Shown here one piece after another: positions 7,560 to 20,906 of a stretch of 22,657 bases of DNA. The translations under genes and the position numbers were made by a program. The stretch comes from a virus: positions 1-22,657 of IMG/VR virus record IMGVR_UViG_3300044638_001602; one strand, given 5' to 3'. Position 1 is the first letter of the stretch, and each line of letters begins with the position of its first letter. The notes under the pieces are model-generated. The model searched no databases and had not been told where the DNA came from. It saw nothing but the letters and a program-made list of their open reading frames with translations.

Positions 7560-7573
7560 GTGTCAAAAATAAA

Positions 7574-12276: not shown

Positions 12277-12966
12277 TTAAGGTGCGGCCACTGCCAATCC
12301 AAACCCAATCAGGGCCCCCACTCCAATCTTAAAGCCAGTCGTTTGGTGCCACTTTGGCGGCTTCCTTACCACAAAATTACTCATCGATGTGATCTGCACA
12401 TTGGGATTGTCAACCTTTATCCTTACCACCGGATCGGACACTTTAAATAATTTGTTTATTAGCCCCTTTCTTATCGTATCTCCAATGGCTACGGTGTAAG
12501 ATGTCGGAATAATTAAAGAGTCAATCTGGAGCCTCCCTAAACGGGTAATCTCGCCCCCCATTGTGAAGTGTTTATCCTTCTTATAAAAGGGCCTTGGTAG
12601 TTTAAGGTGAGGAAAGGAGTCGATGTACACCGGTTCGGCCAGTTGAATCTCAGTCTTTACCACTGTTTTAGTTCGGTACTTTACCACCTCAGTTGGTTTG
12701 TACATCTCCATGTCTTTGATCTCTTTAGTCAGGGCAGCCTCAAGCCTATCAGATTGCACAATCTTTACAGCTTGGCTCACCAGTGTGGCAGAGTCCTTGG
12801 CAATTCGGCTCACCAATTTATCTTTATACTCAATCATGGTGCTAAGATCGGACAGGGCAGCCTGCTCATCTCGGCAAGATTTGAAGTTTATCAGCAGTAA
12901 AATCAGAATTACCACACCATAGATGGCATGGTGCTTTAAAGAGTCAAATTGATAGGTCTTGGACAT
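12277..12966 (-). CDS. Membrane-anchored coiled-coil protein, spanin-like candidate
   Basis: 229 residues. A single N-terminal membrane helix (about 14-28, AIYGVVILILLLINF) is followed by a charged helical stretch (about 33-95) with heptad-like spacing (AALSDLSTMIEYKDKLVSRIA), a Thr/Val/Lys-rich segment (EVVKYRTKTVVKTEIQL), and a hydrophobic Gly-rich C-terminus (about 211-229). An inner-membrane anchor with a long periplasmic coiled coil is the layout of an i-spanin, and the gene lies in the lysis/membrane block after endolysin and holin. Other phage membrane proteins have the same shape, so this is a tentative call. A perfect hairpin lies just upstream of the start. Confidence 0.6.
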   Translation of the reverse strand: MSKTYQFDSLKHHAIYGVVILILLLINFKSCRDEQAALSDLSTMIEYKDKLVSRIAKDSATLVSQAVKIVQSDRLEAALTKEIKDMEMYKPTEVVKYRTKTVVKTEIQLAEPVYIDSFPHLKLPRPFYKKDKHFTMGGEITRLGRLQIDSLIIPTSYTVAIGDTIRKGLINKLFKVSDPVVRIKVDNPNVQITSMSNFVVRKPPKWHQTTGFKIGVGALIGFGLAVAAP

Positions 12967-13147
12967 GGCTCATAATTTGATTAAATCTAATCAAATAAGA
13001 TGATTTATCCCTTAAATTATCCATAAGAATTTGACTCACCACATTTAGTGGCATACCCTTTTCAATCACGTACCCAATCAGCACCCTAATTAATCTCTCA
13101 TCACATTCCTGGTCATTAGTTGGCAAATGATGTGTTGGCTCATTCAT
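12944..13147 (-). CDS. Hypothetical small protein downstream of the PAS-kinase fragment
   Basis: 67 residues: an acidic N-terminus (MNEPTHHLPTNDQE) followed by helices (RLIRVLIGYVIEKGMPLNVVSQIL and SYLIRFNQIMSHV). No membrane span is certain. It begins 12 bases after the stop of the PAS/dimerisation protein and overlaps the next gene by 23 bases, so it is probably co-translated with both. It contains no sequence resembling a kinase ATPase domain, which matters for interpreting its neighbour. Function unknown. Confidence 0.55.
   Translation of the reverse strand: MNEPTHHLPTNDQECDERLIRVLIGYVIEKGMPLNVVSQILMDNLRDKSSYLIRFNQIMSHVQDLSI
12976..12995. repeat. Perfect inverted repeat TTTGATTA-AATC-TAATCAAA
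   Basis: Two 8-base arms around a 4-base loop, lying in the last codons of the 12944-13147 gene and 9 bases upstream of the ATG of the spanin-like gene. In RNA it would form a short AT-rich hairpin at the initiation region. It could equally be a protein-binding palindrome or a chance result of the coding sequence. Confidence 0.7.
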
Positions 13148-13159
13148 GCCTCAAAGATA

Positions 13160-13726
13160 TTAAATTTGTCGGGTTGCTTTCTTAACCAACAATTTTACTA
13201 CCTCATCAAGCCTATCCACTGAGTTTGCAATCATAATCATGATGCCACTCTTCTCTTGCTCGGTGGCTTCTGGGTGATCAAGCAGCATCCTAACCAATCC
13301 ACCGATTGAAGTCAATGGCTGCCTTAGCTCATGGCTTAACATGAATCGGAACTCCTCCAATAATACCTTTTGACGCTCGTGCTCATGAGAAGATATTGAA
13401 GTGACATCCACAAGCTGAATCCCGATAAAGTGCAGGCTGTCCATGATGGAATAAACATTCCACATATTGTACCTCTCTGAGCCAATCTTTTGCTTTGTTT
13501 TGGCATACACCCGAACCGGATCGGGTGAGTTCTTTGTGGCCTTCTTGATGGACCGTATCAGCTCATCTTTGTCGCTGTCATCGGCTGCAATGTCCAAAAA
13601 ATTGGCAGGCTTAATGTGGCTGCTGTACTCTTTGAATAAGTCATTAGATGCCACTATTCTGCCATCAGCATCAGTGATCACATAAAACAGGTCAATTGAT
13701 GAGTCCAGGATGTGCAGGCTTGCCAT
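13160..13726 (-). CDS. PAS domain plus histidine-kinase dimerisation (HisKA) protein without ATPase domain
   Basis: 188 residues. Residues about 8-110 look like a PAS sensor (LFYVITDADGRIVASNDLF at the front, WNVYSIMDSLHFIGIQLVDV at the end). A short linker (HEHERQKVLLEE) leads to a clear H-box, FRFMLSHELRQPLTSIGG, with the phospho-accepting His at 132, and a second helix (EKSGIMIMIANSVDRLDEVV), so the HisKA/DHp domain is complete. The protein then stops: no N, G1 or G2 boxes follow in any frame before the next gene. It would be cytoplasmic. It could dimerise with host kinases, act as a phosphoacceptor, or interfere with a host phosphorelay. It sits between lysis-block membrane genes, which is unexpected. 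Host-gene capture is likely; the role is inference. Confidence 0.85.
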   Translation of the reverse strand: MASLHILDSSIDLFYVITDADGRIVASNDLFKEYSSHIKPANFLDIAADDSDKDELIRSIKKATKNSPDPVRVYAKTKQKIGSERYNMWNVYSIMDSLHFIGIQLVDVTSISSHEHERQKVLLEEFRFMLSHELRQPLTSIGGLVRMLLDHPEATEQEKSGIMIMIANSVDRLDEVVKLLVKKATRQI

Positions 13727-13756
13727 ATCACAAAGATAATTAAGCCCTTTGAACTT

Positions 13757-14158
13757 TTAGGATAATTCTTGCTTAAGCTCTCTAAATAATGAGGCCCAAC
13801 ATGGCCCACAAGTGAGCACATATTTGGCACTCAAAACCAGCATAAAGCTGAACAAAAGAGAGTTTATAAGTAAATCAAAGTTCATAGGCTGCTTAATTTC
13901 TGGCTGATTTCTTACTTGGTGAATAATTACCGGGCTGTACGTTGATTTACTTATTAAAGATACATCAGCAGGCCTAATTGTGTCAATAGGTGTATTTACT
14001 ACCTTATTAACAACAGGATTCACAATATCCACAATCTCCATTTTTTCTTTTACCACATTCACACTATCGGCAATAATTGGCATATCAGCAATTGGTGGCA
14101 GTGGATGGTTCTTGCAGTGTCCGGGATTGGTGCAATGTATGGTGTCAGATGGTGTCAT
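13757..14158 (-). CDS. Membrane protein of the lysis block (spanin or antiholin-like)
   Basis: 133 residues from the ATG at 14158 (MTPSDTIHCTNPGHCKNHP), which overlaps the end of the holin-like gene by 14 bases. The middle is Val/Ile/Asn-rich and polar, and the C-terminal part has one membrane span (about 95-115, LINSLLFSFMLVLSAKYVL), then CGPCW and a short basic/acidic tail. An alternative start at 14230 would add a Trp/Leu-rich hydrophobic N-terminus within the holin overlap, making a two-span protein. Function unknown; its position between holin and kinase fragment suggests a lysis or membrane role. Confidence 0.55.
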   Translation of the reverse strand: MTPSDTIHCTNPGHCKNHPLPPIADMPIIADSVNVVKEKMEIVDIVNPVVNKVVNTPIDTIRPADVSLISKSTYSPVIIHQVRNQPEIKQPMNFDLLINSLLFSFMLVLSAKYVLTCGPCWASLFRELKQELS

Positions 14159-14348
14159 TGTCTTTTGCTTTAGGTAAATAGCCTGCTGCCAATAAAGCCC
14201 CCACAATAGCAGCCAAAGTTTCCACTTCAATCTTCTTTAGTATTAGCAAGAATACAGATGCCAGTATCACTAAGCTGCCAACAGTAGCCTTCCAATGCTT
14301 CAAGATAATATTATAAATTCTCCTGCCTTTATTAGTTCGCCTGGTCAT
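14145..14348 (-). CDS. Small holin-like membrane protein
   Basis: 67 residues with a basic N-terminus (MTRRTNKGRRIYNIILKH) and two hydrophobic segments: about 23-37 (VGSLVILASVFLLIL) and about 43-58 (TLAAIVGALLAAGYL), separated by a short charged turn. A small two-span protein with a charged N-terminus beside an endolysin gene fits a class II holin, which forms the membrane holes that release a cytoplasmic endolysin. The ATG lies inside an inverted repeat (14342-14376), suggesting control of translation. A tail or membrane-regulator role is an alternative. Confidence 0.65.
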   Translation of the reverse strand: MTRRTNKGRRIYNIILKHWKATVGSLVILASVFLLILKKIEVETLAAIVGALLAAGYLPKAKDNDTI

Positions 14349-14397: not shown

Positions 14398-14853
14398 TTA
14401 TTTACAAAGTGAGAAGTAGAGCTTGGCCTCTTCTCTTCTCCTGGTCACAAGTCCAGGCAGGACCTTGCCACCACCTCTCACCCACTTATTAAACTCATCC
14501 ACAATGGATGGATCAGCAGGATTGGCCTTGGCCTTTTTTAAAAGTGTCGATTTAATAAAGGCCCCTGTGCCTACATTGTAGCAGAATGATACTAAGGCAT
14601 CAAACTGACACTGATTAATATTGGGCAGATGCCTGTTTACCGCATCCTCAAAGGATTTCATGGCAGCCAATAAAAGTGATGTGGCCTCTTGCTCATTGTC
14701 CAATTTGTCTCCCATCTTTACCTTGCTCCCATCAGGATATCGGGTGTTCCCGTAGCCAATTGTTACCACAGAAGCAGGGCAGAGGTAGGCATTAAGCCTT
14801 AGCCCTTCATGCTTCTTTATGATATCAAGTCCTGACTTGGATGTGGATCTCAT
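14398..14853 (-). CDS. Endolysin, GH24 lysozyme (muramidase)
   Basis: 151 residues, the normal length of T4/P22-type lysozymes that cut the MurNAc-GlcNAc bond in peptidoglycan. The active site is at KKHEGLRLNAYLCPASVVTIGYG: E16, then eight residues, C25, then five residues, T31, the E-8-D/C-5-T triad of GH24, here with Cys in place of Asp. Later family features are FDALVSFCYNVG (about 84-95) and a C-terminal TRRREEAKLY. There is no signal peptide or hydrophobic N-terminus, so release should depend on the neighbouring holin-like protein. The ATG shares a base with the previous stop (TAATG). Confidence 0.93.
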   Translation of the reverse strand: MRSTSKSGLDIIKKHEGLRLNAYLCPASVVTIGYGNTRYPDGSKVKMGDKLDNEQEATSLLLAAMKSFEDAVNRHLPNINQCQFDALVSFCYNVGTGAFIKSTLLKKAKANPADPSIVDEFNKWVRGGGKVLPGLVTRRREEAKLYFSLCK

Positions 14854-19862: not shown

Positions 19863-20906
19863 TTAAGGATTTACGATTGACACACAGTTCACATAGTTCA
19901 CACCTGCGAACTTATCAGCAGCCTCATAAATATCAGTTGGTAAAGTCACGATCTTGCCAGTAGTGGTAAGAACAATTGACAAGTTACCACAGTCATCCTT
20001 CATGGTCAAATCAACAGGTACTCCTGCAGGTGTAAACACCAATGTCTTAGAGTAGTTTGATCCGGCCACAGGAGTGATGCCTGTATTCCAATCTGCAAGG
20101 TTAAATGATAGCCACTGGATTGCTCCTGCTGTGGTCACCAAAGCCTTGGTTTGTGAACCTTGTGCAGCGGCTAAACGTGCATCATAAGCAAAGCCAAAGC
20201 CATTTTGCTGAGTGATTGCAAGAAGGTCAAGGCCGTACTGTGAGCAGCAGCCTGCAGCCATTGCATTGGCATAACGCTGCATAGCAGCTCCACCAAATGC
20301 AACAGGTGCACCTGGATAGTTAGCCATGCGAGTAGCCTGCTGAATGTCAGCAATTGCAAAAGGGTTTGGCTCAGTTTCACCATTCATGGTGGCAATTTGC
20401 AAACAGTCACTTGATACAGTGTAGAAATCTTCCACATCAGTACCCCATGCACCTGTCTCAGCAACGGCTTGAGTAGCAGCAGCAGAGGCCACTTTACGAT
20501 CAATCACATCCATTAAGCGCATAACTGATTCAAGAACGTAACGGCTATTTTCTTGGCAGTGACGTGCGATATCAGCAGCATTAATCAATTGTGATGCAGT
20601 GTAGGTGTCAGTTGTGTCCACAGTGTATGTGGTAGTGCTGTCACCATAGGTGTTGGTTGAAGTACAAGTAAGGATGTCTCCACCCTCTTCTACTTCTGTC
20701 TCAGGCAAACGCTGGATCCAACGAGCTTGAACGGTTTTTAATTTACCGCCTCCAGGACTAACCTCAGTGCGGATTAATTTTGAATTTTCTGGTGATAAAA
20801 GAAACTCCAAGAATGGGAGTTGCTCTCTTTGGCCCACTTCAATGAAGAGCTCAGATAATGACATCTGAACATTAGGGCATTCTGAAAGAATACGTGAAAT
20901 TGACAT
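19863..20906 (-). CDS. Major capsid protein candidate
   Basis: 347 residues. It is the only product in the window with the size and setting of a capsid subunit: preceded by a scaffold-like coiled-coil gene, transcribed from a leader with promoters, and followed by a terminator. Early region QLPFLEFLLSPENSK and GGKLKTVQARWIQRL, then a Thr/Tyr-rich strand region, long helices with Ala-rich segments (NAADIARHCQENSRYVLESV; AAATQAVAETGAWG), and a C-terminal strand domain (NYSKTLVFTPAGVPVDLTMK). No peptide motif is diagnostic of the HK97 fold, and there is no obvious N-terminal delta domain because a separate scaffold appears to be present. A different major virion protein is possible but less likely. 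Confidence 0.75.
   Translation of the reverse strand: MSISRILSECPNVQMSLSELFIEVGQREQLPFLEFLLSPENSKLIRTEVSPGGGKLKTVQARWIQRLPETEVEEGGDILTCTSTNTYGDSTTTYTVDTTDTYTASQLINAADIARHCQENSRYVLESVMRLMDVIDRKVASAAATQAVAETGAWGTDVEDFYTVSSDCLQIATMNGETEPNPFAIADIQQATRMANYPGAPVAFGGAAMQRYANAMAAGCCSQYGLDLLAITQQNGFGFAYDARLAAAQGSQTKALVTTAGAIQWLSFNLADWNTGITPVAGSNYSKTLVFTPAGVPVDLTMKDDCGNLSIVLTTTGKIVTLPTDIYEAADKFAGVNYVNCVSIVNP

Follow-up and report, generated by a model that had tools for sequence, protein, structure and literature searches.

The window analysed here is a whole IMG/VR virus record of 22,657 bp, in which the minus strand is the coding strand for nearly all genes. On that strand, an open reading frame from 13726 to 13160 encodes a protein of 188 amino acids that joins a PAS sensor region to a DHp hairpin and is termed the half kinase below; the plus-strand frame over 13160-13726 is not open and is full of stops. 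The same gene order surrounds it in 23 relatives, apart from a few in which gene calls deviate: a phage lysozyme, a holin-like protein of 67 aa, a membrane protein bearing a C-terminal TM, the half kinase, a protein of 60-73 aa and a spanin-like membrane protein. The features of the window are listed in Table 1.

Table 1. Features of the half-kinase locus, with the basis of each assignment.
Feature	Coordinates	Strand	Basis
PAS-DHp half-kinase gene, 188 aa, without HATPase	13160..13726	-	ORF, Pfam, AlphaFold2, homologues
PAS-like domain, residues about 13-108, DVT motif at its end	13403..13690	-	AlphaFold2, Foldseek, NCBIfam PAS-kinase models
DHp (HisKA) helical hairpin, residues 114-187	13166..13387	-	Pfam HisKA, model helices
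Phospho-acceptor His132 codon	13331..13333	-	His in 162/162 distinct homologues, likewise Glu133
Phage lysozyme (endolysin)	14398..14853	-	Pfam 6e-40, PHROG endolysin 4e-53
Holin-like membrane protein (putative holin), 67 aa	14145..14348	-	Sequence, weak PF20712 match, synteny
Upstream membrane protein, C-terminal TM and short tail	13757..14230	-	True start probably ATG at 14158
Predicted partner gene, 67 aa, conserved D-x-R-L...MP core	12944..13147	-	Synteny, alignment
Spanin-like protein (putative spanin): N-terminal TM, long middle, C-terminal hydrophobic stretch	12277..12966	-	Sequence, alignment, synteny
TATCTTTG, -7 promoter element of Bacteroidota type, 4 nt ahead of half-kinase ATG	13731..13738	-	Spacing from PMC6847099
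Second TATCTTTG, 4 nt before ATG of 67-aa gene	13152..13159	-	Sequence

The Pfam HisKA model (PF00512) matches residues 129-177 of the window protein above its cut-off (E = 8.2e-8) and is significant in all 27 aligned family members. The match spans an H-box with the phospho-acceptor His132 in the sequence SHELRQP and coincides with a two-helix hairpin. The PAS region has diverged too far to be matched by Pfam in the window protein, where it stays under threshold, and PAS_9 is weakly matched in two of the 27 aligned members; NCBIfam models of PAS-containing kinases cover residues 16-180 (PnpS, 8e-10; PhoR, 6e-9). The AlphaFold2 model used was built on the alignment of 27 homologues and reaches a mean pLDDT of 77, compared with 57 for an earlier, shallower alignment. 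It shows PAS-type strands and helices followed by two helices at 114-150 and 156-187, and Foldseek matches it to LOV-histidine kinase and PAS domains with E-values down to 3e-7. A PAS fold thus precedes the DHp hairpin, and a DxT exit motif (DVT at residues 107-109) lies at its end.

The half kinase terminates where the second DHp helix ends. The HATPase_c domain with N, G1 and G2 boxes that would make it a complete sensor histidine kinase is absent from the protein, and no HATPase was found anywhere in the 22.7-kb record. The half kinase thus belongs to the HisKA domain family without being a histidine kinase, and its anatomy as a PAS sensor with a DHp hairpin is close to certain. The original prediction, which had described a full PAS-like region and H-box, His132 as phospho-acceptor and a stop after the second DHp helix, agrees with these results. 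It had also placed the next gene 12 nt past the stop and denied it any kinase boxes; the spacing is right, and HATPase is missing there as in the rest of the record.

Relatives of the window protein are encoded by 324 IMG/VR stretches detected by a pattern-plus-tblastn search, and further scans added more. Among the IMG/VR loci fetched, 162 distinct homologues are full-length (a few copies cut by contig ends are left out of this count) and fall into 18 clusters at 85% identity, with identities down to 48%, so that the architecture is indeed present in other phages, where the original prediction had proposed to look for it. All 162 are 186-189 aa long, and His132, Glu133, Arg135 and Pro137 are invariant, while Gln136 (His +4) is replaced in a single homologue, by His. 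In the PAS region, Tyr15, His37, Tyr74, Trp89 and Asn90 are invariant as well, and its pocket may bind a ligand. Among diverse pairs, pN/pS is 0.235 for the whole protein and 0.087 for the H-box segment 124-147, compared with 0.24 for the PAS region, 0.26 for DHp helix 2 and 0.48 for the inter-helix loop; column entropy is 0.43 in the H-box versus 1.06 and 1.14. The H-box is the most constrained part of the protein. One further copy (L144, 5000-5580) is frame-broken into two ORFs and could be either a sequencing error or a pseudogene.

Profile searches, for which 14 of 14 control genomes gave the expected match, detected no HATPase_c in 43 phage records carrying the half kinase (23 + 20) and no receiver domain (PF00072), and hence no response regulator of a phage two-component system, in 23 of these. 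A truncated or frameshifted complete kinase is ruled out by the constant length and the absence of HATPase_c from these records, and the original prediction had already argued against a frameshift; a kinase whose other half is encoded elsewhere in the phage is likewise ruled out as regards a recognisable HATPase_c. Two findings had been named as grounds for giving the prediction up, namely relatives that all carry an HATPase domain and relatives that have lost His132. Neither holds, because HATPase_c is absent from the homologues and none of the 162 lacks the histidine. A tyrosine integrase is absent from 27 records. Outside the family, matches in phage records are limited to weak H-box similarity with other kinases, and those in plasmids to cellular PAS kinases at 20-43% identity. 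Two scans of genome collections revealed no prophage or host homologue; they used short exact patterns, so this exclusion covers motif-bearing relatives only. The half kinase is a real, diverged family.

The linkage of this family to lysis genes was also seen from an independent start. At the 119 loci that were found from the spanin-like gene and have enough upstream sequence, a few of which share a contig, the half kinase is present in every case. In the L199 clade, the genes downstream of the spanin-like gene are all unrelated to those of the window and the lysis block with the half kinase is intact, indicating that the half kinase travels with the lysis module and not with the replication module. 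Membership in an early replication module is thereby ruled out. The half kinase is constantly linked to the endolysin gene and to the putative holin and spanin genes. This position is proof of linkage, not of a function in lysis. In five clusters (L273, L309, L269, L354 and L350), the half-kinase start falls within the 3' end of the membrane gene upstream. A gene of 60-73 aa follows on the 3' side wherever the sequence suffices, with an ATGA overlap in most clusters, which suggests that the membrane protein, the half kinase, the small protein and the spanin-like protein are encoded in one operon. The location in a lysis block, as originally predicted, is borne out by the gene order in relatives, whereas the claim that the gene sits between two membrane-protein genes is only approximately correct: the adjacent downstream 67-aa gene does not encode a membrane protein, and the next membrane protein lies one gene beyond.

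The 67-aa protein has no family match and is possibly a DHp-binding partner; a strict DERL pattern overlooked forms such as DDRL and DKRL, and these were identified by eye. The 67-aa holin-like protein has a weak, above-cut-off match to PF20712 (CyanoTRADDas_TM, 6.5e-6). The upstream membrane protein contains a CxNPGHCxNHP sequence near its N-terminus and a conserved tail after its C-terminal TM, and in the L199 clade (cluster c26) it is replaced by a protein unrelated by BLAST.

The Bacteroidota -7 element TAnnTTTG lies just upstream of the half-kinase start in 12 of the 18 clusters. The distance is exactly 4 nt in 11 of these, for all or part of their members, with one of the 11 also showing 5 nt, and it is 7 nt in the twelfth. 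The element is lacking in six clusters, among them the five with the overlapping membrane gene. The 4-nt spacing is found in 115/127 distinct upstream sequences of one set and 90/151 of a wider set, compared with a rate of 0.0003 in shuffled sequences and with 7/400 among other genes of half-kinase phage genomes. A conserved -33 promoter element was sought in these upstream regions and not found. In Flavobacterium johnsoniae, transcription starts 4-5 nt past the -7 element (PMC6847099), and since the element here stands 4 nt before the ATG, the half-kinase mRNA is predicted, by analogy, to be leaderless and to start at the ATG. The same prediction applies to the 67-aa gene and to the primase gene, which has a third TAnnTTTG exactly 4 nt before its ATG (7564-7571, minus strand). 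Leaderless mRNAs are uncommon in Bacteroidota (PMC7366714). The nearest relatives of the primase and terminase belong to Flavobacterium, Cellulophaga and Nonlabens phages (32-37% identity); together, the promoter type and these distant phage relatives point to a probable Bacteroidota host.

In its PAS region, DVT linker and HisKA H-box, the half kinase resembles PAS-HisKA sensor kinases (PhoR/PnpS-like; ThkA, FixL and LOV-HK folds). Among solved structures, ThkA (3a0r) gives the best sequence match, and LOV-HK ranks with the best fold matches. In contrast to these kinases, it lacks an HATPase_c domain, a transmembrane part and a cognate regulator, and ends at DHp helix 2. Spo0B and ChpT are cellular proteins that both keep a vestigial ATPase-like domain. 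The half kinase shares with them, and with CA-deficient pseudokinases such as ChrS with its CA frameshift (PMC9491836), a phospho-acceptor hairpin lacking an active ATPase domain, but unlike Spo0B and ChpT it has no ATPase-like domain at all and carries a PAS domain. Its conserved motif would be compatible with a putative Spo0B/ChpT-like phosphotransferase activity, in which role it may act. Among the weak structural matches are short proteins from uncultured phages that carry PAS or 'histidine kinase' labels.

Phage VP882 encodes VqmA, a PAS-domain regulator that ties lysis to the state of the host and is a DNA-binding transcription factor. The half kinase is likewise a phage-encoded PAS protein, whereas its PAS domain is joined to a DHp hairpin and it has no DNA-binding domain. 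The agr locus of the C. difficile phage phiCDHM1, described near the endolysin gene, also contains a sensor-kinase piece without a phage response regulator: its AgrC has an HATPase domain and no recognised receptor domain (PMC3901668). AgrC is thus a mirror image of the half kinase, encoded by a temperate phage with host-derived genes, whereas the half kinase is a diverged core gene without close cellular relatives in the collections searched. Phage-borne kinase pieces are therefore already known; for a conserved PAS-DHp core gene of a lysis cassette, no report was found in the open-licence literature.

The preferred reading, held tentatively and at somewhat less than even confidence, is that a host histidine kinase supplies phosphate to the half kinase, which in turn feeds into the signalling of the host at about the time of lysis. 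The cytosolic PAS sensor and DHp hairpin would be made within the lysis cassette, along with the coupled partner of 60-73 aa. As the half kinase has no recognisable domain for using ATP itself, any phosphate would have to come from a host kinase, whose ATPase domain would supply it either by heterodimerisation or with the half kinase as a substrate in trans. The half kinase would then hand the phosphate on to a host response regulator or withhold it from that regulator, a step gated by the PAS domain and perhaps also by the small partner, and the output would most likely adjust the infected cell around the time of lysis. If phospho-chemistry is used, both kinase and regulator must be those of the host, because HATPase_c is absent from the 43 phage records and the receiver domain from 23.

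The strictly conserved phospho-acceptor motif speaks for real phospho-chemistry rather than a purely dominant-negative dimer, without being proof of it; the conservation of the H-box could alternatively reflect a fixed protein-protein surface. FixL-type kinases naturally carry Gln at +4, so that this position is not decisive for phosphatase activity. Kinase chemistry in HisKA kinases requires the acidic residue at +1 and phosphatase activity requires Thr or Asn at +4, and the Asn-to-Gln exchange N375Q at +4 of CrdS abolished its phosphatase activity (PMC3510030). Because the half kinase keeps Glu at +1 and has Gln, or His in one homologue, in place of Thr or Asn at +4, phosphate acceptance is favoured over dephosphorylation of a response regulator. 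The Gln residue narrows the possible outputs, with dephosphorylation probably unlikely if CrdS N375Q is a guide.

The main rival to phosphate transfer is a lysis switch that works without phosphate and without any host two-component system, in which PAS-DHp serves only as a dimer under the control of a signal: by binding its coupled partner of 60-73 aa, the cassette's membrane proteins or both, this dimer would set the timing of lysis. The fixed position in the cassette with translational coupling to both neighbours, the lack of a phage receiver domain and the short conserved tail behind the C-terminal TM of the neighbouring membrane protein all speak for such a switch, but it leaves the invariant phospho-acceptor His and catalytic Glu of 162 proteins unexplained, and we regard it as possible though unlikely. 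A dominant-negative partner, which would poison a host sensor kinase by forming inactive heterodimers, is less plausible still. Kinases dimerise through the DHp domain, HATPase is absent, and loss of a working CA domain with heterodimerisation has a precedent in ChrS, a pseudokinase with a non-working CA domain that pairs with HrrS and alters signalling (PMC9491836). ChrS, however, boosts output, and a pure poison needs neither an intact His-Glu pair nor a PAS domain under purifying selection.

Isolated DHp domains are able to bind response regulators. Together with the retained His-Glu motif, this would allow the half kinase to act as a phosphatase or phosphate sink that drains a host response regulator and silences a host stress response, a reading that is improbable given the Gln found at +4 in all homologues but one and its effect in CrdS, with the reservation noted for FixL. 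A functionless, decaying fragment of a captured host kinase would account for the missing catalytic domain, but is already refuted for practical purposes because the half kinase is conserved: length, frame and motifs are kept in 18 clusters under the low pN/pS given above, and the gene is never missing beside the spanin-like gene at the 119 loci.

In strictly lytic phages, the timing of lysis is usually attributed to holin accumulation alone. A phosphate-accepting half kinase would extend to a split-kinase strategy, which remains speculative: an apparently virulent lineage of Bacteroidota phages would supply the sensor and phospho-acceptor half together with a small partner, the host would supply the ATPase half, and the hybrid relay would signal the moment of lysis to the phage or the cell. 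This group of uncultured viruses, with hosts of Bacteroidota type, may thus read or borrow host signalling when timing or preparing their release. If this is true, a core lysis gene with a sensor and a phospho-acceptor, and no engine of its own, would connect lysis directly with host signalling at the molecular level, and would do so in a phage lineage often found in metagenomes. It also provides a testable case of a viral protein that depends on a host kinase to work, unless it acts as a repurposed kinase dimer.

Two further observations concern the phage genomes themselves. At the major-capsid position of the window, 19863-20906 encodes a 347-aa protein without a Pfam, PHROG or phage-record match. 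On a single 36-kb contig (L370/L390), the spanin-like gene is matched at both ends, which suggests terminal redundancy or a circular map.
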